From an uncultured Bacilli bacterium (GTDB lineage: Bacteria > Bacillota_I > Bacilli_A > RF39 > UBA660): a stretch of 42,302 bases of DNA. Where the stretch lies: contig CANQYB010000008.1 in NCBI GenBank assembly GCA_947627975.1, positions 1-42,302 of the forward strand, in the 5' to 3' direction. The translations under genes were made by a program, and so were the position numbers. Numbering within the stretch: the first letter of the stretch is position 1; the number at the start of each line of letters is the position of its first letter. Below the pieces are notes generated by a model. It ran no database searches. It was given only the letters and a program-made list of their open reading frames with translations, and was not told the DNA's origin. Below are positions 3,870 to 24,332 of this stretch, piece by piece.

Positions 3870-4598
3870 ATGAAATTTTTTAACTACTTTTTTTTATTAA
3901 TTATTAGTTTTATAATTATTAGTATTTCTCCTAAGGCTCTTACTGATAACTGTTCAAATAAGGAAAATCTAGAACTACAAAAAGCTGCTAGTCAAGTAAA
4001 AATTGGTTATACATATAAAAATGTAACTGATACGTCTTTATTAAATAATAAATCAGTTGAATTTACAATTAATATTAATAATATGTCTGATAATATTTAT
4101 ATTGATGTTTTTGGGATTCCTACTGTTTTAAAATCTACATATTATAAAAGTAATGAAATAGCTGGTGTTATTAGCATTGGAAATTTGCCTTCTTATACTC
4201 AAAATACTTATACTTTGCAAATTAAATCGAATAATTATAATTGTAAAGATAAATTAATTGTTTCTAAACAAATAGTTACACCAAAATATAATGAATTTTC
4301 TGAAAGTTCAGAATGTAAAGAATATCCTAAATTTTCTCTTTGTCAAAAATTTTATAATACTTCTGTTACATATGAAGAATTTTTATCTAAACTTAATAAT
4401 TATATAGATAGTTTAAATCAAGTGAAAAAAACTAGTTCTATAGAAAAAAAAGAAGAAGAAAAAAAGACAGTTGATTATTTAAAAGAAGTTTTTAATCAAA
4501 ATAAAAAAGTTTTATTATATATTTTGTTATCAATAATAGTTGTAGTATTAATAATTGGAATTATTGTTGTTATTAGAAAGAAATTAATTATTAAATAA
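3870..4598 (+). CDS. Secreted Cys-containing ectodomain protein with C-terminal TM anchor (cassette 1, protein A)
   Basis: Signal peptide, VTPKYNEF...CKEYPKFSLCQKFY, C-terminal LLYILLSIIVVVLIIGIIVVIRKK. Confidence 0.7.
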   Translation: MKFFNYFFLLIISFIIISISPKALTDNCSNKENLELQKAASQVKIGYTYKNVTDTSLLNNKSVEFTININNMSDNIYIDVFGIPTVLKSTYYKSNEIAGVISIGNLPSYTQNTYTLQIKSNNYNCKDKLIVSKQIVTPKYNEFSESSECKEYPKFSLCQKFYNTSVTYEEFLSKLNNYIDSLNQVKKTSSIEKKEEEKKTVDYLKEVFNQNKKVLLYILLSIIVVVLIIGIIVVIRKKLIIK

Positions 4599-4613
4599 TA
4601 GGATAGTGATAAA

Positions 4614-5387
4614 ATGAAAATAATAAATAAATTAATTTTTTGTACTATTTTTACCTTTTTATTTTTTGGTGTTAAAAATAATATTTTTGCACAAGAATTA
4701 TGTAATGATACCAAAGTAGCTGAAAATATTAAAGTAAAATATGAATTAAAAAATGAAACTATAAAAAATTATAATCCATGTCCAGATAAGGAATGTGATC
4801 CTCATACATGGGAAGTAAATCCTCCTAAGGGATATTATTATAATTTAATTATTAGTAATTTAAACAAGGGTATGTATGTTGAAATTAGTAATGATTATAA
4901 AGAAAATTATGAGACAATTGATGAAAGTTTATTTCCATCAAAAGAAACTTTTGATGATACAAAATTTGTTGACAATTTATTAGTATATGAATCTACAAGA
5001 ATCTACTATATGGTAAATTATACAATAGATATTTATGATAAAAATAGTTCTTGTTTGTTAAAAACTTTAAAAATAAAAACTCCATTTTATAATGAGTATA
5101 AAAATAATAATAAAAATATTTGTAAAAAAATACCAAAATTTAAATATTGCCAAGATTGGCTAACTGAAAAAATAACAGAAAAATCTTTTTATAATAAAGC
5201 ATTGAGTTATGCAAATAAAAATAATATTAATATAAATAAAGAAATTCCAGATATATATAAAGAAAATAAAGAAGTAAATAATGTTAAAAATAAAATAAAT
5301 TTAAAATTAATTTCATTATTAATTTTAGGAGTGCTTGTTATTTTAACTATTATAACTGGCATAATAGTTAGGAGTAAAAGAAAATGA
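4614..5387 (+). CDS. Secreted Cys-containing ectodomain protein with C-terminal TM anchor (cassette 1, protein B)
   Basis: Clear paralog of the 10948 ORF: NPCPDKECDPHTWEVNPPKGYYYNLIISNLNKGMYVEISN; C-terminal TM. Confidence 0.7.
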   Translation: MKIINKLIFCTIFTFLFFGVKNNIFAQELCNDTKVAENIKVKYELKNETIKNYNPCPDKECDPHTWEVNPPKGYYYNLIISNLNKGMYVEISNDYKENYETIDESLFPSKETFDDTKFVDNLLVYESTRIYYMVNYTIDIYDKNSSCLLKTLKIKTPFYNEYKNNNKNICKKIPKFKYCQDWLTEKITEKSFYNKALSYANKNNININKEIPDIYKENKEVNNVKNKINLKLISLLILGVLVILTIITGIIVRSKRK

Positions 5388-8300
5388 AAAAGAAATTTTG
5401 GAAATTATTATTTTTAATTATTTTTAGTTGTTTTTTTTCATTATTAAAGACAAATGCTATGGAAGTTTTCTATGATTCTATACCTAGCTTATGGCATTGG
5501 GCAAAATCAAATTATGGTACTAGCATATATGTTTCTTCTCCTGATTATGGAAATTATAATGGTCAAAACGTGGAGTTATATTGTGTATCTCCTCAAAAAA
5601 ATAGTCCATCTTCTGTAAATGTAAAAAATATTTTAACATCGGATAAATGTAAAAAAAGTGATTCTTTTGAATGTTCCATGATTTATGTTTTAAGTAGCAA
5701 TTATAATTGGCAAACAAAACTTTTAGCTTCACGTTTAGTTGCATCAAAATATAATAAACTTGATGGAGATGGAATATGGGGTAATGGAAATGATGGCATT
5801 TATGATTGTTCTAGGAAAAGGATTGAAGGAAAATCTAATAATTGTGAACCATATTGGCAAAATTACGGTAGTTATAAAGATGCTGTAACATTATATAAAA
5901 ATGCTATAAACAAAAATAATTTAGATTTTTCTAAAAAAGAAAAACTTTATAAATTACATATGGCATCTTATAATAATGCTTTTCAGCAATACTATTTTAT
6001 AACATCAGAAAATAAAACTTGTGAAAACACTGATTATCCATATAAAAAAATAAATGATAAAATTTCAATTAGAAATACAAAAAATACCTATACTAGCTCT
6101 GCTAATGAATGTTATACTGAGTTAAAAACTTGTAAAGATTGGACTACTTATTATATTAAAACTAAAAATAAAAGTATATCAGATTCTTTGAATAATCAAG
6201 GATATAAATTTAAATCTTCAGAAGAATTTACTTATAAAAATGAAACATACAAAATGAAAAATTCAACACTAAACATTAATTCATGTAAAAAAAATATTTT
6301 TGATGCACCTTTAATGTCTTGTGTTACAGAGAAATGTTTTAAAAAAGTTGAACAAAAATGTCCTGAAAATACATATAAAACATTTAATGGATCTATTTAT
6401 AAAAGAAATACAAAAAAAACATACACTACATCTTCTAAAGAATGTTACACTGAGTTAAAAACTTGTGAAAATTGGTTAATTTATTATTACGAAAATCAAA
6501 ATCAATCAGTAAAAGATCAGTATTCTTATTTAGATAATAGAGCAGGAAAATTTAAGGTTATTGATAGTAAAACAATTGATAAAGATAATGGCTTTACATA
6601 TTTAATTAATGAAAGTAAAAGAAAAAATGTAGTAACTTCTGCTAATTGTAAAATAAATGGTAAAAATTATTGGGATTCTTCTAATAATAAACCAAATTTG
6701 TATTGTTTAAAGCATGTCTGTATGTTACCAACTTGTGCATCATTTGAAAATAAGTCATATACAGGATATTTATATAAGGGATCTAATAATACTCAATTGA
6801 GTAAATTTAGTCCAACAGATGATGATATCATAAAAACATGTTTTAAAAAACCAACTTGTGGAGAATATAAAAATTTGAAATTTTCTGGTTACGTATATAG
6901 TGGACCAGATAGTAAAACTGTTGATACTACTGATATATTTAATATAGACAAAGTGGCCCAAGGAAAAGGTAGTACTCCACTAACATCTTCATTTAAAAAT
7001 TTTATGAATGAATATAAAGATAATAATATTACTATTAAAAATAATAAAATAATAAATGTTACTACAAATGTTGTTGGGGCTTATAACAATTATATTATTA
7101 AAAATACATGTTTTAAAAACAAGGCAACATGCAGTGATAAAATAAATGAATTTCAGTTAACAAATTATGTTAAAACAAATAATGGTTGGTTAAAAGAAAA
7201 AGAAAATCCCAAAAATACATCAATAGATATAAATGCTTCAAAAGATGAGGTTTTAAAAACATGTTATTCTAATCCAATAAGTACTTGTAAAGATTGGGCA
7301 TTATTTTTTGCTAATAATAAATATAAAGAACAGTTAAACCCATATGACAACTCATTTAAGGAATATAAATTTGATGATTATGATGCATTTACATATAAAG
7401 AAACAAAATATAATCTAAAAAATGAAAATACAAAACTAAGTAGTACTAAATGTAGCAATAATGGCGGATGGGATAATGCTTATAATGGGCCTAAACTTGA
7501 ATGCTTAAAAAATGTATGCTTTGATATTGATACCTCAAAAAAAAGTTGCCCAGAAGATAAATATAAAACTATAAAAGGTGTTGTCTATAAAAGAAATACA
7601 AAAAAAACATATACCGTAAATATTAATGAATGTTATGATAAAGAACTTTCTACATGTGAAGATTGGGCAAGTTTTTATTTTAACAATAAAAAAAGTATAA
7701 AGAATTATTTTCCAGAGTGGTATACTAATGACAATCATAATGATGGTAATTTAGAAAGTTATGGATATCATTATTCATCACCAAGCTCATACAAAGTATT
7801 TAAATATGATGGTGATGGTAAAATTTATGTGTATAATGAATTAAAGAAAAATGATAAATTAGAAAAAAGTAATTCTAGTGTAACAAGTATTTGTAACTTT
7901 GATCATATGCCAAATGAACCAAATGATTGGCAATATATTTATTGGAATAATTATGATTCAAGTCGTCCTCATAATTTTATTTATGATAAAGAAAATGAAG
8001 ATTATATTAAAAAATTAAAAAAAGATTTACCTAAAATGTATTGTGTAAGAGCATATTGCTATGATCCAAAAGATGAAATAAAATCAGATTGTGATAATGT
8101 TGATCCAAATTTTAAAGGATCATTTACTGGAAAAGGAACATTTGACTATAATATTTATAGTTCAATTAAAGATGATAAAACAAAAGATAATTATATCAAA
8201 ACTTGTAAATGTAATTGCAATTCTTCACCTGATGCCATAAATGCAGGATGCAGCTTAAAAAGTGGTGCTTGGAATAATGAAACTTATAACAATTTAAATG

Positions 8301-10084
8301 ATAAGGCAAAAGAAAGCTATAATGTAGCTTGTTCTCCATGTGATTTTAGTAATTCAAAAAATGTTTCATGTAATAATAAAAATATTAATTGTAGTGATAG
8401 TAATAAATCATTAATACAAACTGATACTAGCTTATTAGATTCTAGTTATTACTATAAAAAAGATGGTGTTACATTAGAAGATGAAGCAAATTCTATAATT
8501 AAATTAGTCAATAATTTTGTTATCAATTTAGATAATAATGTTTCAAAAGAAAATAAAGATGCTTTGGAAAAACAAATTGATTTATTAAAAAATAATTTAG
8601 AAAAAAAAGATATAAATTTGGCTAATAAAAATTTAGATGATTTAATTAGTCTATATAATAAGATTCAAAATATTAATAAAGCTAATGACTCTCAAAATTC
8701 CTCATATAAAGTGGATTATGATTTAACTCAAATAAATGCTTGTTTAGATTCACTAAAAAACAATACTTCTTCTATTTCAAAGTATAATTTTAAAAATGAT
8801 AATGAAGAAAATATTTATGGAATTAATACAAATTCAATTTGTAAAGAAGAGTTTGAAATAACTTATAATTCTATGGGCATATCTACTGGAATAAATACAA
8901 CATTAGGAGTATCAAGTTATTTAGAAATGAAAAATAATTTAGCAAATGACAATAGAGTAAAAGTAAATGCTATAAGAACATGCTATGTTGATGACATTAA
9001 AAAAGTGGATAATAATTTAATAGATAATTATTTTAATCATAAAGAATTATATCCAAATGCGCCTAGCTTTGATTTTACTTATGATGAAAATATTCCTAAT
9101 AGTGGATTATCATATAATGAATCAAAATATTATAAGCCAAAAATTGATTTAGAAAATAATACTGTTACTAGTATAGTTACTTATTCTTATTATCCTCACA
9201 CATCTTATGCTATTGATGTTGTAAATTCTAATTTATATTTTGATGTTTTAAATGAATCTGAAGAAAAAATAGATAATTTTTCTAAATCTGGAATTATAAA
9301 ACCTTATAATTCTAAAAATAATAATATAAATACAATAAAAAAATTAGGATCAAATTATTTAAATGGTAAGGTTTTCCCTATTAAGTTTTCAACTAAAATA
9401 AATGATACAAACGAAGAAAATTTTAATGATTCATTTGTAAAAGACAATAGTAAAAATTATAGTTTTAAAGTGAAAAATTATAATATTAATGAGTATGCAT
9501 TAAATTATCAAGAAGATAATAATGATTGTATCAGTGAATATGCATGTAAATATATTACAAGTAAAAAAGATTGCAAAAAAACAACATCTATTTGTAAATA
9601 TGTTTGTTCAAAAAATAACATTCCTGATTCTGAAAAAGAAACTAGTCCTTATTGCAGTGAAGTTTGTACATGTTTAGAAGATACAAGTACAAAAAAATCT
9701 AAATCAACGGATATTAATTTTATATATAATCAAATTAGTAATGATAATTTATTTGATGGATATAAAGTTTTAGGTTCAAATTGGTTAAATCAAAAAGGAA
9801 CGGAAACAATTGAAAAAATTAAAGAAACATCTAAAACTGGAGATACATTTTCTAAAAAGAATTTAGTTTATGAAGTCAAGTTATCATATAGTGATATTAA
9901 AAGTATTCAAAAAAAAGTTAAAGATGAAGGATATATAGGGAATGTTAATTGTTTAGAAACAATTGGAAATTCTAATATATATAAATGTCAAAGTGAATTC
10001 TTAAAAGAACTTGATGCTCAAAATAATATTAAGTATGAATTATATGAAGACAAAAAAACTAACTCATATCTTGCATGGAAATAA
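5384..10084 (+). CDS. Giant secreted Cys-rich surface protein (1566 aa; cassette 1, protein C)
   Basis: Signal peptide; long ORF translationally coupled (ATGA) to upstream gene; paralogous over N- and C-terminal regions to the 11660 ORF. Confidence 0.8.
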   Translation: MKKKFWKLLFLIIFSCFFSLLKTNAMEVFYDSIPSLWHWAKSNYGTSIYVSSPDYGNYNGQNVELYCVSPQKNSPSSVNVKNILTSDKCKKSDSFECSMIYVLSSNYNWQTKLLASRLVASKYNKLDGDGIWGNGNDGIYDCSRKRIEGKSNNCEPYWQNYGSYKDAVTLYKNAINKNNLDFSKKEKLYKLHMASYNNAFQQYYFITSENKTCENTDYPYKKINDKISIRNTKNTYTSSANECYTELKTCKDWTTYYIKTKNKSISDSLNNQGYKFKSSEEFTYKNETYKMKNSTLNINSCKKNIFDAPLMSCVTEKCFKKVEQKCPENTYKTFNGSIYKRNTKKTYTTSSKECYTELKTCENWLIYYYENQNQSVKDQYSYLDNRAGKFKVIDSKTIDKDNGFTYLINESKRKNVVTSANCKINGKNYWDSSNNKPNLYCLKHVCMLPTCASFENKSYTGYLYKGSNNTQLSKFSPTDDDIIKTCFKKPTCGEYKNLKFSGYVYSGPDSKTVDTTDIFNIDKVAQGKGSTPLTSSFKNFMNEYKDNNITIKNNKIINVTTNVVGAYNNYIIKNTCFKNKATCSDKINEFQLTNYVKTNNGWLKEKENPKNTSIDINASKDEVLKTCYSNPISTCKDWALFFANNKYKEQLNPYDNSFKEYKFDDYDAFTYKETKYNLKNENTKLSSTKCSNNGGWDNAYNGPKLECLKNVCFDIDTSKKSCPEDKYKTIKGVVYKRNTKKTYTVNINECYDKELSTCEDWASFYFNNKKSIKNYFPEWYTNDNHNDGNLESYGYHYSSPSSYKVFKYDGDGKIYVYNELKKNDKLEKSNSSVTSICNFDHMPNEPNDWQYIYWNNYDSSRPHNFIYDKENEDYIKKLKKDLPKMYCVRAYCYDPKDEIKSDCDNVDPNFKGSFTGKGTFDYNIYSSIKDDKTKDNYIKTCKCNCNSSPDAINAGCSLKSGAWNNETYNNLNDKAKESYNVACSPCDFSNSKNVSCNNKNINCSDSNKSLIQTDTSLLDSSYYYKKDGVTLEDEANSIIKLVNNFVINLDNNVSKENKDALEKQIDLLKNNLEKKDINLANKNLDDLISLYNKIQNINKANDSQNSSYKVDYDLTQINACLDSLKNNTSSISKYNFKNDNEENIYGINTNSICKEEFEITYNSMGISTGINTTLGVSSYLEMKNNLANDNRVKVNAIRTCYVDDIKKVDNNLIDNYFNHKELYPNAPSFDFTYDENIPNSGLSYNESKYYKPKIDLENNTVTSIVTYSYYPHTSYAIDVVNSNLYFDVLNESEEKIDNFSKSGIIKPYNSKNNNINTIKKLGSNYLNGKVFPIKFSTKINDTNEENFNDSFVKDNSKNYSFKVKNYNINEYALNYQEDNNDCISEYACKYITSKKDCKKTTSICKYVCSKNNIPDSEKETSPYCSEVCTCLEDTSTKKSKSTDINFIYNQISNDNLFDGYKVLGSNWLNQKGTETIEKIKETSKTGDTFSKKNLVYEVKLSYSDIKSIQKKVKDEGYIGNVNCLETIGNSNIYKCQSEFLKELDAQNNIKYELYEDKKTNSYLAWK

Positions 10085-10153
10085 TAGAAGATAAATAGAA
10101 TATTAATATAAATTAATTTTCTAAAATTTCTTCTTTTATTTTGATTTTCTTTG

Positions 10154-10162
10154 TGCTATACT
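10154..10162 (+). promoter_or_regulatory. Extended -10 promoter element
   Basis: TGC TATACT. Confidence 0.45.
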
Positions 10163-10186
10163 AGAGAATAATTATGGGGTGAGTTT

Positions 10187-10870
10187 ATGAAAAAATACGT
10201 ATTTTTACTATCATTTTTTATAGGTTTTTTACTAATAGTTCCTAAAAATGTTTTAGCTGATTATTGTGTTGCTACGAATAATATGGAAGCTGATTATACT
10301 TATAAAGAAGATTTCAGTGTTTTAAAAAACAAAAAGAAATTAAGTAAAGATGATGTGTTTTTTCATTATTTTATAAATATTAGTGGACTCAATGATAAAA
10401 ATTATGTTGTTATAACAAATAACTACAATAAAAAGACCAAAAAAATAACAGCTCAGGAATTTAAAAATGGAATAGCAGTTTATGAGTGGACAAAATTTAA
10501 TAAAGAAGTTGAATTTACCATTAAAATTTATTCCTTAGATGAAAATTGTATGAATAAAAATATTAAGACTTTAACTATTATTACACCTAAATTAAATAAA
10601 TATTATTTAGATGAAAAATGCCGAGAAATACCAGATTTTGAAATGTGTCAGCCATTTTATGAGACTGATATAAATTATAAAGATTTTTATGAAAATGTAA
10701 ATATTTATCGAAAAAAAAAGGGAATGAAATTAGTATCTGAATTTGATACAACTAAAACGGGAATAATTTTAGATTTTTTAAAAAATAATATTTGTTCATC
10801 TACTATTGCTATTATGTTTTTAATTGGTATTATTGCTATAATTATTAATAAGAAAAAAATGTCTGAGTAA
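10187..10870 (+). CDS. Secreted Cys-containing ectodomain protein with C-terminal TM anchor (cassette 2, protein A')
   Basis: Signal peptide; ITPKLNKYYLDEKCREIPDFEMCQPFYE; C-terminal TM; same layout as the 3870 ORF. Confidence 0.7.
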   Translation: MKKYVFLLSFFIGFLLIVPKNVLADYCVATNNMEADYTYKEDFSVLKNKKKLSKDDVFFHYFINISGLNDKNYVVITNNYNKKTKKITAQEFKNGIAVYEWTKFNKEVEFTIKIYSLDENCMNKNIKTLTIITPKLNKYYLDEKCREIPDFEMCQPFYETDINYKDFYENVNIYRKKKGMKLVSEFDTTKTGIILDFLKNNICSSTIAIMFLIGIIAIIINKKKMSE

Positions 10871-10887
10871 TCAGATATTTTTATTAT

Positions 10888-10921
10888 TTACATTGACAAG
10901 ATTAATGTGTTATACTAATAT
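10888..10921 (+). promoter_or_regulatory. Promoter upstream of 10948
   Basis: TTACAT-17-TATACT with extended TGT; overlapping TTGACA-17-TAATAT. Confidence 0.5.
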
Positions 10922-10947
10922 TAGATTATTATAGGAGGATATAAATA

Positions 10948-11673
10948 ATGAAGAAACTAAAATTGGTAGCTACTTTTTGTTTTTTAATGTTACTAAGTAT
11001 ATTTAATGTACATGCTATTGAATGCCAAGATAAAAGTATAGCAAGTGATGTAAATATTGAATATGAAACTAATTTTGAATCATTTGATAATTATGTACCG
11101 TGCCCAAATGGTGAATGTAGCCAATCTGATTGGACAGAAACACCACCTAGAGGTTATTATTATAGTATTAAAGTAACTAATTTAACAAATGATATGTATG
11201 TAGAAATAAGTAATGGTGAAAAAACTGAAACTTTTGATTCAACTAAAATTGTTGATGGAATATTAACTTATGAAACTACTGATATTAATTCAATATATAA
11301 TTATACTGTAAAAGTTTATAAAGCAGAGGAAAATTGTATTTTAAAATCATCTAAAGAAAAATCACCAATGTTAAATAAATATGCAACATCTAATGTTGAT
11401 TTATGTAAAAAGATATCTGATTATGAGAGTTGTAATCCATGGGTTAAAAAAGAACTTAATGATGAAAAATTTTATGAAGGTGCTCAAAAATATGCAACTT
11501 CTAAAAAAGTTAAAGTTGATAATTTAATACCAGATGTATACAAAAAAAATAATGATAAAAGCAATTTAAACACTGTAAAAAAAATATTAATTTCACTTAT
11601 TATTGTATTATTAATTGGTATAATAATAATTAGTATAAAAGTTTGGGGGAAAAGTAAAAATGAAAAAAAGTAA
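10948..11673 (+). CDS. Secreted Cys-containing ectodomain protein with C-terminal TM anchor (cassette 2, protein B')
   Basis: VPCPNGECSQSDWTETPPRGYYYSIKVTNLTNDMYVEISN closely matches the 4614 product; C-terminal TM. Confidence 0.75.
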   Translation: MKKLKLVATFCFLMLLSIFNVHAIECQDKSIASDVNIEYETNFESFDNYVPCPNGECSQSDWTETPPRGYYYSIKVTNLTNDMYVEISNGEKTETFDSTKIVDGILTYETTDINSIYNYTVKVYKAEENCILKSSKEKSPMLNKYATSNVDLCKKISDYESCNPWVKKELNDEKFYEGAQKYATSKKVKVDNLIPDVYKKNNDKSNLNTVKKILISLIIVLLIGIIIISIKVWGKSKNEKK

Positions 11674-14557
11674 AATAGCTAATTTAATATTATTTTTAAT
11701 TATTGGTCTATTTATAGCAAATTTAAATGTAAATGCTGAAAAAAGGCAATATAATGTTACATTAAGTGGTTATCATAATAATCAAACTAATTCATGTGTT
11801 GGAACATGTTTTAGTGCATATCATAGTGCTAGAGAAGCGGGTGCTAATGGATTTTATTGGTTAGTAACTAATACTGGTTATCCAATTAATGTTAATAATT
11901 TAGAGCAAATTACTTTTAAAAATAGTACAAGAGACATGTACTGTGTATCTCCTAAAATGGCTGCTGATACTGCACGTGGTGGAGGAGTTTATGTAGATGA
12001 TTCTAAATATTATTCATCACTAAAATGTGATGGAAAAAATAACTCTTATGAATGTGGTGCTATTCATATTTTAAAAGAAAATGCTGACTGGGAAACAAAA
12101 TTAATTGCTATAAGATTACTTGCTGCTGAAAAAGGAAGACTTATTGGAATACCTAATGTTACTAGTGGTGATGGTGTATGGTCTGGAGATAAATCATATG
12201 TAAATAATGTTGCTGATGGAGTTTATTATTGTTCATCATTAAAAGCTAGATATGGAAATGATTATAATTGTGGTCCTTATTGGTCTAAAAGTAAAAGTAA
12301 GGGTACAAAAGGATGGCAATTATATCAAAAAGCAGTTAACTTATATTTAAGTGCTCGTAACGCTAAAAATAACAATTATAAAAATGCATCAAAAGAATAT
12401 AGATTATTTGAAGCTACTCCAGTTGGTGGTAGTGGTTACCAATCTTATTTATTTATAACTTCTCAAAATGCTCCTAAAAAAGAGACTCCTAAAAAAGAAA
12501 AAAATTGTACAGAATTAAAAGATTCATGTTTAAATGGAAATAAAAATGATTGTAATACTTACAAGGACAAATGTTCAAATTGTGATAAGCTAGAAGATGA
12601 ATGTGATAAAGGAAACAAAGATTCTTGTAAAATTTATGATAAAGTATGTCCAAAAAAGACATGTAAAGATTATAAAGATGAATGTGAAAAAGATCCAAGT
12701 TCAAAATCTTGTGATAAATATAGTTCAAAAGAATGTTGTGATGAAATAAAAAAATCATGTGAAGATGGAAATGATAAAGATTGTGAAACTTATGATAAAG
12801 TATGTGCAACTACTACTAATAAATGTAATTTAAGTGATGAAGAAATTAATAGTGGTGTAATTGTAAAAAATGCACAATCAGGAGAAAAATTTAATTTAGA
12901 TGTTTGGAATAAAATTAAAGCTCGTGGAGATAAACATCAAATGGATTCATATAAAAAATATTGCAAATGTAATTGTACAAGTACATCTGAAGAGATTAAT
13001 AGTGGAGCGTGCGATTTAACATCTGGTGGTGAATGGAATTCTGATGTTTACAATAAATTGAATGATAATATTAAGGAAAGTTATAATGTTTCATGTCCAC
13101 CTTGTAACTTTAATAATGATAAAATTGCCTGCAGTGGTAATGGAACATGTGATGATAATAAAGCTGCAACCTTAAAAGCCAATTATGATGAATCACAGCT
13201 TGTAGCTTGTTCATCTGTATCATCTGATAAATCAAAAATTGATAAAATTTATTCTGATAATAACTTAAATGCAATTTGTTATGAAGAATATGAAATTAAT
13301 TATAGAGAAGCATCAATAACTACTGGTATTAATACTACACTTGGTTTATCAAGATATTTAAAATTTGATGATAATGTAGATAAAGATCTTGATAATAGAG
13401 TAAGAGTAACGACTACTAAAAATTGTTATGTTCATGGAGAACTTGATAAAATTAATTCTTTAATTTCTAAAAATGAAGATGGCCTTTTTGCTAAAGCTCC
13501 TTCAATAAATTTTGAATATAATGAAGGAATTCAAAATGAAGGATTTATAGATGAAACAGCTAAAGGAAATATTTCTACTCCAGAAAGTAAAGGTAGCAAT
13601 GTATATAAAGTTGTTGCAACTAAAGATTATGAATATATTCCTGCTACTGAATTTCATGTTGGTGTATTAGATGGTCAATTTTATGCTAAAGATAATGCAA
13701 CTAATGATATTACTTTAAAATTTGATTCTCTTGTAAAAGAATATAAAGAAGATGAAAATATAAAAATGTTAGGTGCAAATGGTAGAGTATTCCCAATTAA
13801 ATTTACTACTCAAGGGCAAATACTTGATCAAATTCCTGAAGATCAATGGGGATATCCATATACAATTAATATTAGTAATTACAATATGGATGATACTTCA
13901 ATAAATAAAGATTATGATAAAGAAAAATGTAAGAATGATTATTCTTGTAAATATATAATAAGTAAAAAAGAATGTAAAAAAGGTCCATGTGCTTGTAAAT
14001 ATGTATGTTCAAAAGATAACATTCCTGATTCTGAAAAAGAAACAAGCCCTTATTGTAGTGAAGTATGTTGGGACGAATCTAATGAATCAAAATCTAGTGA
14101 TAAAGAAGGCATTTCATTTACTTATAATACTATTTCAACTGATACTATACTTGATAAAAATATTGCCACAAGTATTGGTTCAAATTGGCTAAATACTAAG
14201 GGACAAGACACATTAGAAAAAATTAAAACGTCTTCTCAAAAAGGTAATATATTTGATGATGATAATGCAACTTATACAATAACTTTAACATCTGATGACA
14301 TTAGTAAAATTAAAGATGAAATAAAATCATCAAGTTATGTTAATAAAGCTGGTATAAATTGTGATAATTTATTTTCAAATATTTATGAAGCTAAATCAAA
14401 AACTGATGTAAAAAATGATACAAATAATTCTAAGACAGACATTTATTATTGTACTAGTGATTTTATAAGAAAATATGCTACAACAGAGCAAAAAAATAAA
14501 TTAAATTCATCATATACAGTATATTATGATGGCACTAATTACAGTGCATGGAAATAA
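11660..14557 (+). CDS. Giant secreted Cys-rich surface protein (965 aa; cassette 2, protein C')
   Basis: Signal peptide; CKYVCSKDNIPDSEKETSPYCSEVC and terminal YSAWK shared with the 5384 product. Confidence 0.8.
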   Translation: MKKSKIANLILFLIIGLFIANLNVNAEKRQYNVTLSGYHNNQTNSCVGTCFSAYHSAREAGANGFYWLVTNTGYPINVNNLEQITFKNSTRDMYCVSPKMAADTARGGGVYVDDSKYYSSLKCDGKNNSYECGAIHILKENADWETKLIAIRLLAAEKGRLIGIPNVTSGDGVWSGDKSYVNNVADGVYYCSSLKARYGNDYNCGPYWSKSKSKGTKGWQLYQKAVNLYLSARNAKNNNYKNASKEYRLFEATPVGGSGYQSYLFITSQNAPKKETPKKEKNCTELKDSCLNGNKNDCNTYKDKCSNCDKLEDECDKGNKDSCKIYDKVCPKKTCKDYKDECEKDPSSKSCDKYSSKECCDEIKKSCEDGNDKDCETYDKVCATTTNKCNLSDEEINSGVIVKNAQSGEKFNLDVWNKIKARGDKHQMDSYKKYCKCNCTSTSEEINSGACDLTSGGEWNSDVYNKLNDNIKESYNVSCPPCNFNNDKIACSGNGTCDDNKAATLKANYDESQLVACSSVSSDKSKIDKIYSDNNLNAICYEEYEINYREASITTGINTTLGLSRYLKFDDNVDKDLDNRVRVTTTKNCYVHGELDKINSLISKNEDGLFAKAPSINFEYNEGIQNEGFIDETAKGNISTPESKGSNVYKVVATKDYEYIPATEFHVGVLDGQFYAKDNATNDITLKFDSLVKEYKEDENIKMLGANGRVFPIKFTTQGQILDQIPEDQWGYPYTINISNYNMDDTSINKDYDKEKCKNDYSCKYIISKKECKKGPCACKYVCSKDNIPDSEKETSPYCSEVCWDESNESKSSDKEGISFTYNTISTDTILDKNIATSIGSNWLNTKGQDTLEKIKTSSQKGNIFDDDNATYTITLTSDDISKIKDEIKSSSYVNKAGINCDNLFSNIYEAKSKTDVKNDTNNSKTDIYYCTSDFIRKYATTEQKNKLNSSYTVYYDGTNYSAWK
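12506..12805 (+). repeat. Four tandem ~25-aa Cys-rich repeats within the 965-aa protein
   Basis: CTELKDSCLNGNKNDCNTYKDKC / CDKLEDECDKGNKDSCKIYDKVC / CKDYKDECEKDPSSKSCDKYSSKEC / CDEIKKSCEDGNDKDCETYDKVC. Confidence 0.8.
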
Positions 14558-14573: not shown

Positions 14574-14990
14574 ATGAAAGAAAGTTATTGGGGCTACTGG
14601 TTAATATTATTAGGTATTTTAGTAGTTGTCATACTTTTATTAGTACAAAGTTATACTACTACTAACACACAAGATTATTATTTAATTAAAGAAACTACTG
14701 AAGCAGCTATGAATGATGCAATTGATTATGGATATTATAAAAATTATGAAGAGCTTAGAATTAATAAAGAAGTATTTATGGAAAGTTTTATAAAAAGATT
14801 TGCTGAAGATGCTTCTTTATCTAAAGAATATACAATTTCTTTTTATGACATCTATGAAGCACCTCCTAAAGTTAGTGTAAAAGTAACAAGTGCTTCTAAA
14901 ACTTTTAGTATTAGAGGAGATGCTAGTTCAATAGATTCAGTTAATAAATTATCTTCTATATTACAAATTAATATGACAGAAAATAAGTAA
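14574..14990 (+). CDS. Small N-terminally anchored TadE/minor-pilin-like protein
   Basis: MKESYWGYWLILLGILVVVILLL... single N-terminal TM and position between giant protein and cpaB. Confidence 0.5.
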   Translation: MKESYWGYWLILLGILVVVILLLVQSYTTTNTQDYYLIKETTEAAMNDAIDYGYYKNYEELRINKEVFMESFIKRFAEDASLSKEYTISFYDIYEAPPKVSVKVTSASKTFSIRGDASSIDSVNKLSSILQINMTENK

Positions 14991-15002: not shown

Positions 15003-15812
15003 ATGGGCGTTGCTATTAAAAGATTTTTAAGCAACAAAAATACAGTAACGATTATTGGTGTAATTCTTGGTATAGTGGTTTTATATGTAGGTTATAATTG
15101 GCGAGTTAATAATGCTCTTGAACTGATATCTGTACCTGTTGCCAATAAAGAGATTGCTTCACGTACAAAAATTACAGAAGATATGATAACTTATATAAAA
15201 TTACCACGAAATTCTGTAAATTCAATTGATAATCTAGAAACATCTGCAAGTAATATAGTTGGTAAATATGTTTCTTTTGGAACAAGCATTGCTCAAAATA
15301 GTATGTTTTATACATCTTATTTATTAGATAAAAGTGAAATGCCAGATTCTGCTTTTGCCGATATACCAGATGGTTATACTATTTTTAGTTTAAATGTTGA
15401 TTTACATTCAACATATGGTAATTCTATTTACCCTGATAACTATATTGATTTGTATTTAAAGGCAACAGATGATACAGGAAAGGTTATATTTGGGAAATTA
15501 ATTTCTAGTATAAAAGTACTAGCTGTTAAAGATAGTAGTGGTAATCATGTATTTGAAACTACTGTTGAATCTAGAACACCATCTGAATTATTATTTGCTG
15601 TTACTGATGATATGTTTTTACTTTTAAAGAAAGCAGAATATATTGGGTGTGAAATAACACCTATTCCAAGAAATGCATCTTATAGTGCTAATCCAGGAGA
15701 AACAAGTGTTGCTAATGATTATTTAAGAGATTTTATTTTATCTAAGGCAGCTACAATTCCAGATTCTGAAATTACTATAACGAATAATGATGATAACGAA
15801 ATAGAAGATTAA
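15003..15812 (+). CDS. cpaB: CpaB/RcpC-like Tad pilus assembly protein (SAF domain)
   Basis: N-terminal TM, VPVANKEIASRTKITEDMITYIKLPRN...IVGKYVSFGTSIAQNSMF, then IPDGYTIFSLNVD...YPDNYIDLYLK. Confidence 0.8.
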   Translation: MGVAIKRFLSNKNTVTIIGVILGIVVLYVGYNWRVNNALELISVPVANKEIASRTKITEDMITYIKLPRNSVNSIDNLETSASNIVGKYVSFGTSIAQNSMFYTSYLLDKSEMPDSAFADIPDGYTIFSLNVDLHSTYGNSIYPDNYIDLYLKATDDTGKVIFGKLISSIKVLAVKDSSGNHVFETTVESRTPSELLFAVTDDMFLLLKKAEYIGCEITPIPRNASYSANPGETSVANDYLRDFILSKAATIPDSEITITNNDDNEIED

Positions 15813-15836: not shown

Positions 15837-17003
15837 ATGAACGAAGCGATATTTTCACAAATTGATTTTGGCCCTTTAAAAGAATATTTAGAACAAGATG
15901 ATATAACTGATATTTCTTATGATAATGGGGGACAATTGTGGCTTAAAACTCTATCTAAGGGTATTTTTAGAGTTGAAAATCCTGCTATTAATAATTCATT
16001 AATAGAAAAAATTGCCTTTCAATGTTCCAATGTCATGGGAAAAACGTTTAATATGGCTGAACCATTTTTAGATGCTGAAAGTACTGAGCTTCGTTTAAAT
16101 TTTATTCACGAATCTATTGCTACTAATGGAATTGCGATGGTTATACGTAAAACACCAGCAAAAATAAGATTAAATCGTGAAAAACTTTTAAATGAAGAAT
16201 ATGTAACTAAAGAAATTTTGGATTTTTTGATAAATTGTGTTCACGCTCGATGTAATATTATTGTAAGTGGAGAAACTGGTTCTGGTAAAACAGAACTAGT
16301 TAAATATTTAGCAGCAAATACAAAAGATAATGAGAAAATTATTACTATTGAAGATACTTTGGAACTTCATTTAGATAGAATTTTTCCTCATCGAGATATT
16401 GTAGCTATGAAAACAAACAATATTGCATCATATTCTGATGTTTTAGTTACATGTATGAGACAAAATCCAATATGGATTTTATTATCAGAAGTTCGTTCTG
16501 CCGAGGCTGTTTTGGCTGTTAGAAATTCTATTTCTTCTGGGCATCATATTTTATCAACTATTCACGCTGATAAGGCTTCTTCAATACCAATGCGTATGTA
16601 CTCTCTTCTTGAAAGTAGTCAAGATGTTGATCAATTTTTATCATCTATTCATAGATATGTTCAAATAGGTATATATGTAAAAGGTTATTTTTCTAAAAAA
16701 TTAAATAGATATCAAAGAGAAATTATTGAGGTTTGTGAATTTTATGTTGATGATGATAATAAACCAATGACAAATATAATATATAAAAAAACGTTAGATG
16801 GAAAAATTACTTTAAATAATCCAACAAAACATTTACTTGATTATTTTAGTATTGCTAATGTTTTAATTGATAAAGATACATTCCATTTAAATGATGAAAA
16901 AAATAATTTAAATAACAAAGAAAATCAAAATAATAATTTAAATAATAATTCTCATGATTTATTAAATTCTTTAAGATTAAATAATAATATTGAAACATTA
17001 TAA
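15837..17003 (+). CDS. cpaF: CpaF/TadA-type secretion ATPase
   Basis: Walker A SGETGSGKTELVKYLA, EDTLELHLDRIFPHRD, LLSEVRSAEAVLAVRNSISSGHHILSTIHADKA. Confidence 0.92.
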   Translation: MNEAIFSQIDFGPLKEYLEQDDITDISYDNGGQLWLKTLSKGIFRVENPAINNSLIEKIAFQCSNVMGKTFNMAEPFLDAESTELRLNFIHESIATNGIAMVIRKTPAKIRLNREKLLNEEYVTKEILDFLINCVHARCNIIVSGETGSGKTELVKYLAANTKDNEKIITIEDTLELHLDRIFPHRDIVAMKTNNIASYSDVLVTCMRQNPIWILLSEVRSAEAVLAVRNSISSGHHILSTIHADKASSIPMRMYSLLESSQDVDQFLSSIHRYVQIGIYVKGYFSKKLNRYQREIIEVCEFYVDDDNKPMTNIIYKKTLDGKITLNNPTKHLLDYFSIANVLIDKDTFHLNDEKNNLNNKENQNNNLNNNSHDLLNSLRLNNNIETL

Positions 17004-17021: not shown

Positions 17022-17915
17022 GTGGAATTAGTTATACTGTTAATAATTACAGCATTTATTATTACCTATAGAACTAATACTGGTGAAAAAACTTCTAAGT
17101 TTTTTATTGAAAAAGTTACCCAAGCTTATAACAAATATGCACCTGGTAAATTTAAAGAAGTAAGAGAAAAAGCAAAGGAATTGGGCCAAGAATATACACC
17201 AAGACAATATTTAACTCAAGTTGTTATATTAGGTGTAGTATTTGGTGGAATAGCGTTTTTATATTTTTGGAATTTAATTATTGCAATTATTTATGCAGTA
17301 ATTGCGATTTCCTTTGTTCCATATCTAGCTTTACTTCGTTGTAAAAGAATTTATAGTGAATATATATTTGAACAAATTCAAGTTTATACTACAAATACTA
17401 TCATGGAATTTAATACTACTCAATCATTTGTTAAAGCACTTGAAGGTGTTCGTGATTCTGGAATTATTGAAGAACCAGTACTTAGTGACTTAAAAAAAAT
17501 GATTGAACTTTCCTATGAAAATGGAACAATTGAAGAATCAATAGAATACTTTAATCAGAAATATCCATTTTATATGGTTAAAAATATGCACCAATTGTTT
17601 TTGCAAATAACTAATGAAGGGGCAAAAGATTCTGGAGAATCACTTGAAAATATGTCTATGGATATTGATATGTTAGTTGAAGGAGTTTATAGAGATAGAA
17701 TGGATAGAAAAAATTTTCACAGACGTTTTTTATCTTTTGGATTTGCTCTTTATTTTTTAGTAGTTGCAATGACACTTCTTCTTGGAAAAGATTCCTATAG
17801 AGAACTTATAAATCTTTGGTATGTAAGCTTGCTTCTTCACGCAATTATTATAATAAATAGTTTTTTCTTACTAAAAGGAGAAAAATATTATAACGAAGAT
17901 GTGGGGGCTGAATAG
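17022..17915 (+). CDS. tadB: TadB-like T2SS F-domain inner-membrane protein
   Basis: Position after cpaF; TM-cytoplasmic-TM layout; GTG start preceded by AAGGAAGGTG. Confidence 0.75.
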   Translation: MELVILLIITAFIITYRTNTGEKTSKFFIEKVTQAYNKYAPGKFKEVREKAKELGQEYTPRQYLTQVVILGVVFGGIAFLYFWNLIIAIIYAVIAISFVPYLALLRCKRIYSEYIFEQIQVYTTNTIMEFNTTQSFVKALEGVRDSGIIEEPVLSDLKKMIELSYENGTIEESIEYFNQKYPFYMVKNMHQLFLQITNEGAKDSGESLENMSMDIDMLVEGVYRDRMDRKNFHRRFLSFGFALYFLVVAMTLLLGKDSYRELINLWYVSLLLHAIIIINSFFLLKGEKYYNEDVGAE

Positions 17916-17916
17916 A

Positions 17917-18705
17917 ATGTATGTGGAAATAATTTTTTTGGGAGTAGCAATATTTTTTATAATGAATTATACTGGAAGAGTTAGTACTAATAAATTTATT
18001 GAAGATAACGATGATATTTTTCAAAAACTAAAAGAAGATGATTACGACTTTTATGTTTATGCCAAATATGGTCCTGAAAAAGATCCAAATATTTTATTTA
18101 AAAAAAGAATGAAAAACGCTATAATTACTTTATTTATTGTTTTATTGTTTTTTATTTCTAGTTTAGATTATATTAAATTTTTAATTGCTATTGGTATTGC
18201 TTTTGCAGTTTTTAAAATGGATTATATGCAACTTAAATCTTATTATAAGGGAAGGTTGCATGAAATTGATCTTTTGCTACCATATTATTTAAAAAATTTA
18301 GAAATATTAATACAGCATTATACTGTTCCAGTTGCCATTGGTAAATCAATTGAAACAGCTCCTCCTATTTTTAAAGAGGGACTACAAAAAATGATTGATG
18401 AAATAAATGCTGGTAACCAAACAATTGATCCTTATATGGAGTTTGCTAGAAATTATCCTGTTAAGGATTCAATGAGAATGATGCGATTATTATATCGTTT
18501 GTCACTAGGTAAACAAGAGCGTAAACAAGAACAATTGCTTGCTTTTTCTAGAACAATTTCAAATCTTCAACAGAAAGCTAGAGATACTAAGTATAAAGAA
18601 AGACTTGAAAAAATGGAAAAGAAAACTATGCAAATGCTTATTATAACTGGTATTGGTGTAATGATTTTATTAGTTATTTCCCTATTAATGATGTTTAGTA
18701 AATAA
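17917..18705 (+). CDS. tadC: TadC-like T2SS F-domain inner-membrane protein
   Basis: Follows tadB-like gene; LPYYLKNLEILIQHYTVPVAIGKSIETAPPIFKEGL; two C-terminal TM regions; ATG 17917. Confidence 0.72.
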   Translation: MYVEIIFLGVAIFFIMNYTGRVSTNKFIEDNDDIFQKLKEDDYDFYVYAKYGPEKDPNILFKKRMKNAIITLFIVLLFFISSLDYIKFLIAIGIAFAVFKMDYMQLKSYYKGRLHEIDLLLPYYLKNLEILIQHYTVPVAIGKSIETAPPIFKEGLQKMIDEINAGNQTIDPYMEFARNYPVKDSMRMMRLLYRLSLGKQERKQEQLLAFSRTISNLQQKARDTKYKERLEKMEKKTMQMLIITGIGVMILLVISLLMMFSK

Positions 18706-18759: not shown

Positions 18760-18786
18760 ATTATTAGATAATAATTGAGGTGGATT

Positions 18787-21315
18787 ATGAAAAAAAATAA
18801 AAAAATATTATATTTTATTTTATCTTTTATAATACCAATTATAATTTTTATGTATCTTTGTTATTTAAGTAATATATATCCTTTTGGAAACATTTTAATT
18901 AATAAATATGATTCAATTGGACAATATTCTTCCTTTTTAGTAGAATTTATAAATAAATTAAAATTTGGAGGAAATTTTTTTTATACACTTCATGCTGGAT
19001 GTGGTGCTAATTTTTTAGGCATTTTTAACTTGTATGTCGCTAGTCCTTTAAATTTATTATTTATTTTTTTTAAACAAAATCAAATTTATACATTTTATAT
19101 ACTGCTAATTTATATTAAACTTGGTTTATGTAGCTTTTCATTATTTACTTATCTTTATAATGTAAATAAAAATCATTTAAGAGTTAATTTATTATTTACA
19201 ATAATTTACGCTTTGATGTCTTATTCTATTGGCTATTCATATCATATTATGTGGCTAGATGCCCTATATTTAGCACCGTTGATTTTGTTAGGAATTGATA
19301 AGTTAATTAATGATGATAAAATTATATTGTATACAATATTTTTGACTGTTTCAATAATAATAAATTTTTATATGGGCTATATGCTTTGTATATTTTCTTT
19401 AATATATTTTATTTATAAAATAATATTAAAAAAAGGAAACAAGAAAAAAATTATTTTTAAATTTATTTTATCTTCATTCCTTTGTGGATTTCTTAGTGCA
19501 TTTATCATAATTCCCTCAGGATTTGCTTTAATAAATGGTAGAAGTATTGGTGAAAATAATTTTATTTCTTTAAATTTAAATAATTTAAAAGCATTATTTT
19601 ATAATTTAACTCCAGCTAGTTTTATCCAATCAGATAACTATAATGATGGAAGTTGTGTTATATATTGTACTTTATTTGTCATATCACTTGTAATTATGTA
19701 TTTTTTTAATAAAAAAATTACTTTAAAACAAAAATTAATTACATTAATTATGATAATTTTTTTTATAATATCATTTTCTTTTAATTTACTTGATTTTTCT
19801 TGGAATATGTTTACTAAACCTATTTGGTGGAATAGCAGGTATTCATATTTATTTAGTTTGTTTTTAATTATTATTGCGCATGATTCATTCTTAAAAATTA
19901 ATGATATAAAAATGAATCATAAATTAAAATTATTATTTTTTACTATTTTTTTTATTTTAGTAATGATTAGTATGTCTTTAAAATTAATAGGCTCATCACC
20001 AACAAATATAAAATTAATAATAACTTTATTATCAGTTGCATTGCTATTTACATATTTTACTTTAATACCATCACTTAAAAATAATTTGTTTAAATTTATG
20101 ATTTTATTATTATTAATTTTTTCAGAAATAATTTATAATGGTTATTATTTATTAAGTTTTGATAAAGATAGTATTATTTATTATGATAAAACTATCAAAT
20201 CATTAAATAGTAAAATAAAATATATTAAGACATTAAATCAAAAAGATAGATCATTTTATCGAATTTATGATTATAATGATACTCAAGAGGATAATGGAAT
20301 GCTTATTGGTTTTAATTCTCCTTTAATTTTTTCATCAATTTATAATAAGAAATTAAATGTATTTTATTCAAAGTATATGGAAGTTAATAATTTATATGAT
20401 GAGACAATTAATCATACACAAATAAGTTATCCTAGTATAGAGCTTTTATCTTTAATAAATATTAAATATGTTATAGATTATAATGGTAAATTTTTAAAAA
20501 AAATTGATAGAGGAATAAATGAAATTACATCTGCTTTACCATTAGGATTTTTAATCGATGATAAACCTACTATTCAACTTGATGATTATCAAAAGTTTTT
20601 AAATACTGAAAAAATATATTCATATTTAAGTTCAACTAATTTGTCTTTATATAAACAGATTGATGAAGATATTACTTTTAAAAATATTTCTTTAAGTAAA
20701 GAAAAATCATTAAAATTAAAAAACAGTAAAAAAAGTGGGAAAGTAAATTTAAAATTTACAGTTTCTAATAATGGTTTATTGACTCCAAGAGTTTCTCAAT
20801 ATTTTTATAAATATGCTAGTGTATTAATTAACGGTAAAAAAGTAGATAAAAAAGATTTTATAGAAGTTTTTAAAGGGGATAAAGTAGTTATTACTTATCA
20901 ATTTTTAAAAGATGAAAATATAGATAATATATATCTATATGATTTACAGTTAGAAATATTTGATTATCAAAAATTTATTACTGTTATTCATAATTTAAAA
21001 GTTAATAATTTAAAAATTGATAAAAATGATAAAGATATACTTGGGGGATACATAAATGTGAATAAAAATGGGAAAAAATTATTTTTATCAATTCCTTATG
21101 ATAAAGGACTAATTATAAAAATTGATAATGAAGAAGTAAAATATAATGAAGAATTTGATACTTTTATATCTGTTCCTGTAAAAATGGGAAAACATAAAAT
21201 TTCTATAAATTATTATCCTCAGGGATTAAAATTGGGAATAATTATATCATTATCGACATTATTAATGATAATAATTGTAAGAATTTACATATTTTGTAAA
21301 CAAAAATATTTATAA
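18787..21315 (+). CDS. YfhO-family multi-TM membrane protein (putative GT-C type glycosyltransferase)
   Basis: IYPFGNILINKYDSIGQYSSFLVEFINKLKFGGNFFYTLHAGCGANFLG...YNVNKNHLRVNLLFTIIYALMSYSIGYSYHIMWLDALYLAPLILLG; ATG 18787 preferred over the TTG at 18775. Confidence 0.85.
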   Translation: MKKNKKILYFILSFIIPIIIFMYLCYLSNIYPFGNILINKYDSIGQYSSFLVEFINKLKFGGNFFYTLHAGCGANFLGIFNLYVASPLNLLFIFFKQNQIYTFYILLIYIKLGLCSFSLFTYLYNVNKNHLRVNLLFTIIYALMSYSIGYSYHIMWLDALYLAPLILLGIDKLINDDKIILYTIFLTVSIIINFYMGYMLCIFSLIYFIYKIILKKGNKKKIIFKFILSSFLCGFLSAFIIIPSGFALINGRSIGENNFISLNLNNLKALFYNLTPASFIQSDNYNDGSCVIYCTLFVISLVIMYFFNKKITLKQKLITLIMIIFFIISFSFNLLDFSWNMFTKPIWWNSRYSYLFSLFLIIIAHDSFLKINDIKMNHKLKLLFFTIFFILVMISMSLKLIGSSPTNIKLIITLLSVALLFTYFTLIPSLKNNLFKFMILLLLIFSEIIYNGYYLLSFDKDSIIYYDKTIKSLNSKIKYIKTLNQKDRSFYRIYDYNDTQEDNGMLIGFNSPLIFSSIYNKKLNVFYSKYMEVNNLYDETINHTQISYPSIELLSLINIKYVIDYNGKFLKKIDRGINEITSALPLGFLIDDKPTIQLDDYQKFLNTEKIYSYLSSTNLSLYKQIDEDITFKNISLSKEKSLKLKNSKKSGKVNLKFTVSNNGLLTPRVSQYFYKYASVLINGKKVDKKDFIEVFKGDKVVITYQFLKDENIDNIYLYDLQLEIFDYQKFITVIHNLKVNNLKIDKNDKDILGGYINVNKNGKKLFLSIPYDKGLIIKIDNEEVKYNEEFDTFISVPVKMGKHKISINYYPQGLKLGIIISLSTLLMIIIVRIYIFCKQKYL

Positions 21316-21638: not shown

Positions 21639-21893
21639 ATGAAAGAAGCAACTGGCGAATTAAATATGACAGTAATTGTTGTTGTTGCCATAGCTGTTAT
21701 GGCTTCTTTTTTCTTTGGTGTTTTTTGGCCTAGTATTAAAAATAGTTTTGATAGTGATACTGCATGTAATAAAGCTAATTGTAAGTATGGTGAAAATGGT
21801 AATAATGTTAAAGATGGTTATTACATCCATTGTTCATATTCATCATCTGGTAAAACTTATAATTTAGATGGCAAGTGTCCTTATAAAGGATAG
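21639..21893 (+). CDS. Flp-like small pilin 2
   Basis: MKEATGELNMTVIVVVAIAVMASFFFGVFWPSI, 84 aa, SD AAGGAGG. Confidence 0.65.
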   Translation: MKEATGELNMTVIVVVAIAVMASFFFGVFWPSIKNSFDSDTACNKANCKYGENGNNVKDGYYIHCSYSSSGKTYNLDGKCPYKG

Positions 21894-23918: not shown

Positions 23919-23948
23919 ATGCTTAGTTTAAAGAAGGAGAGGTTTTAT

Positions 23949-24332
23949 ATGGCAAAAACAAGTTTTTGTGCTAGTACTGGAAATATATGGCAATTTATTG
24001 GTTATTTTATTTTTTGGTTTAAAATTATTATTCCACTTATTATAATTATTTTAGGTGTAATTGATTTAGGTAAGGCAGTAGTAGCTCAAAAAGATGACGA
24101 AATAAAAAAAGCAACAACTAGTATAGTTAAAAGAATAATTATAGGTATTGTAATATTCTTTATTCCTACATTAATTTATATGTTCTTTGGTCTTGTTGGA
24201 ATTGGAAATAATGCTCAAGATAGAAATGATCAAGGATTTAAAGAATGCTATGAATGTTTGCTTCAACCTTTTGGTGCTGGTAAAAAAGGCAGTTGTAAAG
24301 GTCAAAATATTGTATCAATTGAAGAATCTTAA
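23949..24332 (+). CDS. Small two-TM VirB2/TrbC-like pilin-like protein
   Basis: MAKTSFCASTGNIWQFIGYFIFWFKIIIPLIIIILGVIDLGKAVVAQKDDEIKKATTSIVKRIIIGIVIFFIPTLIYMFFG; ATG 23949 after SD AAGGAGAGG. Confidence 0.55.
   Translation: MAKTSFCASTGNIWQFIGYFIFWFKIIIPLIIIILGVIDLGKAVVAQKDDEIKKATTSIVKRIIIGIVIFFIPTLIYMFFGLVGIGNNAQDRNDQGFKECYECLLQPFGAGKKGSCKGQNIVSIEES

Follow-up and report, generated by a model that had tools for sequence, protein, structure and literature searches.

Gram-positive adhesins with thioester domains (TEDs) of class I or class II, such as SfbI, PnTIE and Cpa, have an N-terminal secreted head, two conserved motifs, a beta-helical-beta topology and a long stalk (PMC4450167, PMC6194298). 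A 42,302-nucleotide stretch of DNA from an uncultured Bacilli bacterium (the window; contig CANQYB010000008.1, from a 1.06-Mb draft genome that is 94% complete) encodes two giant Cys-rich secreted proteins, C1 and C2, which share these features (the topology as modelled with AlphaFold2) and are likely thioester-domain adhesins of a Tad-like pilus locus that runs through a whole bacterial family. This identity was overlooked in an earlier reading of the window (the original prediction), which described a tandem duplication of a three-gene A-B-C surface cassette. As in the TED adhesins and the thioester–isopeptide–ester (TIE) proteins, the C family has Pfam TED matches, and its Cys-Gln spacings are of the short as well as the long kind. 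Unlike them, C proteins have a Cys-rich stalk, in which no isopeptide or ester repeats were detectable as Pfam matches to the sequences of C1, C2 or eight full-length relatives, and a free C-terminal WK. Moreover, C comes with a dedicated Ig-like membrane partner in a Tad-like pilus locus. No LPXTG signal was found in 126 distinct C proteins of the family, C1 and C2 included, and therefore C is not a TIE protein.

Other described systems share parts of this arrangement. The Kil system of Myxococcus, which has Tad pili with interchangeable tips, resembles the system proposed for the window in offering one Tad-type machine several alternative adhesive units, with variable domains exposed at the tip (PMC12075869). 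The tips of Kil, however, consist of minor pilins that carry additional domains. C is not a pilin; it is secreted through Sec, and its head is predicted to be a TED. The non-pilin adhesins of the PilY1 type, found at the tips of type IV pili, are, like C, large, Cys-rich, Sec-secreted, unanchored and encoded with minor pilins (an analogy based in part on PMC12075869). Unlike PilY1, C has other domains and a Tad-type machine in a Gram-positive bacterium, and no Pfam match to the PilY1 propeller was found in C1, C2 or the eight full-length relatives. A secretion-related operon of gut Clostridia likewise groups a TadA/CpaF ATPase, a PilC/GspF-like membrane protein, DUF5411 and a surface protein, although it belongs to another class of Firmicutes and the protein named there is internalin-B-like, with no thioester adhesin (PMC9523054). 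Finally, a class II TED adhesin of a Bacillus subtilis plasmid is, like C, tied to a secretion-type machine, but it serves conjugation rather than a Tad pilus, and the abstract of that report describes no two-cassette locus (PMC8092201). A literature search that combined thioester domains with tight adherence or with type IV pili turned up no system like that of the window. It is possible, though we hold this only tentatively, that the locus represents an undescribed display route, in which TED heads would be carried on a Gram-positive gut Tad-type pilus through GP[AS]WK docking, each with a head-matched Ig-like partner, and partner and head would be swappable on a constant tail. Known thioester adhesins are anchored by sortases, and a link to a Tad-like pilus, if true, would join covalent bonding to a machine that may pull.

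The two cassettes of the window comprise the following genes and features.

3870..4598, + strand: A1, B-family partner with a signal peptide, an ectodomain and a C-terminal transmembrane (TM) helix
4614..5387, + strand: B1, B-family partner
5384..10084, + strand: C1, secreted Cys-rich giant of 1566 aa with 56 Cys
5459..6028, + strand: C1 head, predicted thioester domain
5582..5584, + strand: C1 Cys67, predicted thioester Cys (YCVSP)
5984..5986, + strand: C1 Gln201, predicted thioester Gln (FQQYYF)
10067..10081, + strand: C1 C-terminal YLAWK, variant of the family-wide GP[AS]WK end
10187..10870, + strand: A2, B-family partner
10948..11673, + strand: B2, partner, modelled with AlphaFold2
11660..14557, + strand: C2, secreted Cys-rich giant of 965 aa with 45 Cys
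11735..12484, + strand: C2 head, predicted thioester domain (AlphaFold2 pLDDT 75; top PDB match 5a0n)
11942..11944, + strand: C2 Cys95, predicted thioester Cys (YCVSP)
12440..12442, + strand: C2 Gln261, predicted thioester Gln (YQSYLF)
14540..14554, + strand: C2 C-terminal YSAWK

TEDs are marked by two motifs around the two conserved residues, [YFL]C-phi-zeta for the Cys and phi-Q-zeta-phi-phi for the Gln (PMC4450167; PMC6194298). Both window heads fit the first motif (YCVS in each) and, near the domain end, the second (FQQYY in C1, YQSYL in C2). Their Cys-Gln spacings of 134 (C1) and 166 (C2) are near those of class I TEDs, and many relatives have spacings of 200-360, as if carrying a class II insert. 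We aligned 41 heads; all had been selected by the Cys motif, and for 17 the Gln motif had played no part in the selection. Overall identity was ∼16%, and conservation of at least 90% was seen only at Y69, C70, P73, R127 and Q236; the Gln was present in 38 of the 41 heads, including 15 of the 17 that were not chosen by its motif. TED (PF08341) and TED_2 were the top Pfam families over these heads, several of which matched, and the head of one relative (L101) scored 25.2 bits with PF08341, above the gathering score of 22, in a match that begins at the Cys motif. The AlphaFold2 head model has a beta - helices - beta topology, and its best match among 350,542 PDB chains is the solved TED 5a0n (E = 2.7e-3, probability 0.72), followed by an unrelated structure at E = 0.13. 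These findings make it probable that the C head is a thioester domain. The side chains of its Cys and Gln would then form an internal thioester, as predicted from sequence, that reacts with an amine of the target and fixes the adhesin covalently, with the Cys-rich stalk and tail carrying the head.

Several observations weigh against this assignment. The heads of C1 and C2 have no Pfam match themselves, and the Foldseek TM-score to the TED is only 0.25-0.28 at an E-value above 0.001, so we take the fold match as suggestive support and not as proof. A third TED motif, TQxx-phi-W of the central helix, does not occur in the window heads, which have W[QE]TKL[LI]A.R with a conserved Arg; this motif was published as dispensable for the thioester bond (PMC4450167). 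Many C heads also lack one or both of the Cys and Gln (85 and 67 of 128, by a loose regular expression), and the C1 head of a congener lacks both. The missing Pfam match, the low TM-score and the heads without Cys or Gln, that of the congener C1 among them, would suit a head that binds without a thioester, or a TED that has degenerated; C would then be a tip adhesin or sensor of the ordinary kind, rich in disulfides and binding non-covalently. We consider this unlikely, given that the Cys and Gln are near-invariant in the alignment beside the Tyr, Pro and Arg, that one head passes the Pfam TED threshold and that the top structural match is a TED.

Downstream of C2 lie genes for parts of a Tad/Flp-like machine.

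14574..14990, + strand: DUF5411 protein (PF17424, E = 1.2e-54), short, with one N-terminal TM helix, putatively pseudopilin-like
15003..15812, + strand: CpaB/RcpC-like pilus assembly protein (PF16976, E = 4.6e-5; TIGR03177, E = 2.9e-10; both below cut-off)
15837..17003, + strand: TadA/CpaF-like secretion ATPase (T2SSE, E = 1.5e-27; TadA family, E = 7e-29)
17022..17915, + strand: TadB-like membrane protein (no family match), assigned from its place in the run, its length and its TM pattern
17899..18705, + strand: TadC-like membrane protein (no family match), assigned from its place in the run, its length and its TM pattern
21639..21893, + strand: possible Flp-like pilin (weak Pilin_N match, E = 0.018)

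This run qualifies in part as a Tad/Flp locus: the TadA that such a locus calls for is present, though its score is below the NCBIfam equivalog cut-off. Sampling of 147 genomes from the bacterial family showed that 121 carry DUF5411. The relatives recovered through it are Bacilli whose genomes were assembled from metagenomes of the rumen and of rabbit, chicken and other guts; they probably belong to the RF39-like group. Of the first 42 relatives whose loci were oriented, 40 have a Cys-rich secreted open reading frame (ORF) of 700-1550 aa that ends directly upstream of DUF5411, and all of these fall in one profile family with C2, which C1 matches at E = 4e-10. The usual gene before C encodes a 190-270-aa protein with a signal peptide, 4-8 Cys and a C-terminal TM helix, and almost every relative examined has a B-C pair immediately before DUF5411-CpaB-TadA. 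Upstream sequence was long enough in 86 distinct loci (a sample biased towards the window's kin, with possible double counts through nested DUF5411 genes); they comprised 61 B-C, five B-B-C, five B-C-B-C, three B-B-C-B-C and one C-B-C-B-C arrangement, and the window alone had B-B-C-B-B-C. About 12 of the 86 have two or three C genes; the single locus with three in tandem before DUF5411 is L080 (genome G031). If the favoured explanation is true, it would account for a surface locus that most members of this lineage have, a lineage that is abundant in guts and largely uncultured.

The window's genome encodes two sortases, and no C protein of the family has a C-terminal membrane helix. Lacking both this anchor and LPXTG, C would be displayed through the adjacent Tad/Flp-like machine (DUF5411, CpaB, TadA and the TadB- and TadC-like proteins), probably at the tip, as PilY1 is. 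Among the distinct C proteins, 124 are complete and 69 of these have a W[KR] C-terminus, mostly GP[AS]WK; Pro stands at position -4 in 60 of the 69. This free Gly-Pro-[Ala/Ser]-Trp-Lys end is found in more than half of a family whose members are otherwise ∼20% identical (for example, L045-L163), and its conservation suggests that it is a docking signal. An exact DNA pattern for GP[AS]WK followed by a stop matched once in 40 genomes, at the C gene of G008, and so says little about other substrates.

In agreement with the original prediction, A and B are TM-anchored: A1 has a signal peptide and a C-terminal TM helix, and the AlphaFold2 model of B2 (pLDDT 88.8) comprises a signal helix, a seven-strand Ig-like sandwich, a Cys-bearing helical hinge and a TM helix. 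The model is nearest to Ig-like and Fn3 domains, and four Cys are invariant across 75 B sequences. Of 12 genomes tested that have TadA or DUF5411, 11 also have the B family, as against three of 18 that lack them (Fisher P = 9e-5), the three being drafts with possible assembly gaps. We infer that B and A are membrane-bound Ig-like partners that hold, fold or hand over C, with B matched to its own head, and treat the targets of C in the same way. Pfam matches of B to ETRAMP and similar families were judged to be signal and TM artefacts, and a PDB sequence-profile search with the heads and B gave no meaningful matches.

A thioester adhesin could instead be held at the surface by B and A, and share the pilus locus for joint regulation only. 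The confident TM helix and Ig-like ectodomain favour membrane holding, as do the position of B almost always directly before C, their start/stop overlap and the tracking of the head by B in three genomes (below). Nevertheless, the presence and order of C are tied to DUF5411 and TadA, most genomes that lack the machine have no B, and the conserved free C-terminus of C would be left unexplained, and hence we regard this arrangement as improbable. Pilus display of C is moderately probable, and this reserve tells against the wider explanation. Taken jointly, a thioester adhesin on a Tad-like pilus with B and A as partners is the explanation that we cautiously favour.

The coordinates and order of the six ORFs were as the original prediction gave them, as were the overlaps of B with C: the B1 stop overlaps the C1 ATG at 5384, and B2 and C2 share 14 nucleotides (11660-11673). 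Homology was assessed by local alignment scored against shuffled sequences (z). The predicted alignment of B1 with B2 was recovered at 39-40% identity (z = 53). A1 and A2 are 24% identical (z = 21) and C1/C2 scored z = 49, more than would be seen between unrelated Cys-rich proteins. BLASTP found the predicted shared ends of C1 and C2 and also a middle Cys block (E = 3e-14): the N-terminal 270 aa are 28% identical (E = 2e-22), and the strongest block covers the last 500 aa (C1 1101-1566 versus C2 498-965; 36% identity, E = 2e-69). The proposed 600-aa difference in the middle is mostly additional Cys-rich repeat sequence in the C1 stalk. A and B proved to be related as well (A1/B1 z = 14, A2/B2 z = 21; ectodomains alone z = 4 to 21), and A1, B1, A2 and B2 are all recovered, each with E < 1e-35, by a profile made from the B genes that other genomes carry. 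These four proteins are members of one family; thus the repeated order stands, but the cassette is really two partners plus a giant, rather than an A-B-C unit. Together, these results support homologous tandem cassettes of surface proteins in the window.

The layout is shared with other genomes. A congener (G001, L013) has A1-C1-A2-B-C2, and a genome of a second genus (G131) has A1-B1-C1 beside the same CAAX-protease gene on one contig and C1(end)-B2-C2-DUF5411 on another. As the two-C locus is common to both, the layout is older than the genus. The congener C1 (L013 4749-8720) has kept its tail, has an unrelated head and is not preceded by a B gene. In the genus-2 C1, the assembly breaks in the stalk, inside an internal repeat whose copies are nearly identical, and the gene is split over two contig ends (L060, L199). 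A1 has orthologues in the congener (59-60% identity) and genus 2 (37%), and A2 has one in the congener (65%), with none found in genus 2. B1 is closest to the congener's single B (53-56%), which is located before the congener C2, and B2 to the genus-2 B (47-48%). Correspondingly, the head of window C1 is nearest that of congener C2 (55%) and the head of window C2 that of genus-2 C2 (49%), compared with 36% between the two window heads.

The tails group differently. Those of window C1 and C2 are 42% identical, that of window C2 groups with congener C2 (46%), and the genus-2 C1 and C2 tails group together (41%; 100/100), with 20-26% identity to window and congener tails. In approximately unbiased (AU) tests, whose P values are optimistic because the groups were named after inspection of the trees, window C1 and C2 were rejected as sisters for heads (P = 3.5e-6) and tails (P = 2.4e-4). 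For tails, the pairings of window C2 with genus-2 C2 (P = 3.5e-25) and of window C1 with congener C2 (P = 0.001) were also rejected. Across five units in three genomes, B identity correlated with head identity (r = 0.94; Mantel 1/120) and not with tail identity (r = 0.03). In two further loci (L068, L204), tandem copies are alike in stalk and tail but not in head. B and head modules therefore appear to have been swapped between copies and between species and genera, independently of the tail, and the window copies are, as judged by these comparisons, ancient and mosaic rather than the product of a recent simple tandem duplication. Such exchange would place two different adhesin units on one machine, and the natural head swaps make specificity and docking testable. 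The suggestion in the original prediction that the two copies may serve two ligands is plausible and compatible with module exchange.

Counting against a general B-head match, B tracked head and tail alike in 82 single loci (partial r 0.40 and 0.43), and a family-wide coupling of B to the head only was not seen; B-head specificity therefore comes from the three genomes. At 81% TadA identity, B, tails and heads average 32%, 30% and 23%, and these far lower values indicate that the surface parts evolve fast. Gene conversion in the window C tails was rejected, as window-only shared sites did not cluster (permutation P = 0.54); the tails have 87 positional versus 45 within-genome sites. Plain duplication of one A-B-C cassette in the window lineage with later divergence, as originally proposed, is very improbable and already contradicted: although the repeated order, the homology of all three pairs, the 42% identity of the C tails and tandem B-C copies in other loci fit it, it is too simple for A1, A2, B1, B2 and heads that are each closer to genes of other genomes, for the AU rejection of C1 and C2 as sisters and for the same two-cassette locus in another genus.

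Other features of the window were also noted. The sequence TTGACA-N17-TAATAT lies at 10893-10921, directly 5′ of B2, and B2-C2 could have its own promoter; the promoter scan as a whole was at chance level (127 versus 113 ± 10). The DUF5411 protein (14574) and two small proteins encoded downstream (21902, 22391) start with M[KR]ES followed by a TM helix, and may be minor pilins of one family. A YfhO-family membrane protein (PF09586, E = 9e-135) is encoded at 18775-21315, after the TadC-like gene and before the gene for the possible pilin, and the same gene run includes a two-TM protein (23919-24332) that by eye is like a VirB2/TrbC-type pilin. A surface protein at 1115-1840 ends in NPNTSD, a TM helix and KKR, an NPxTS-like sortase signal of a kind absent from the C proteins, and adjoins a LamG-domain protein (1-1041).

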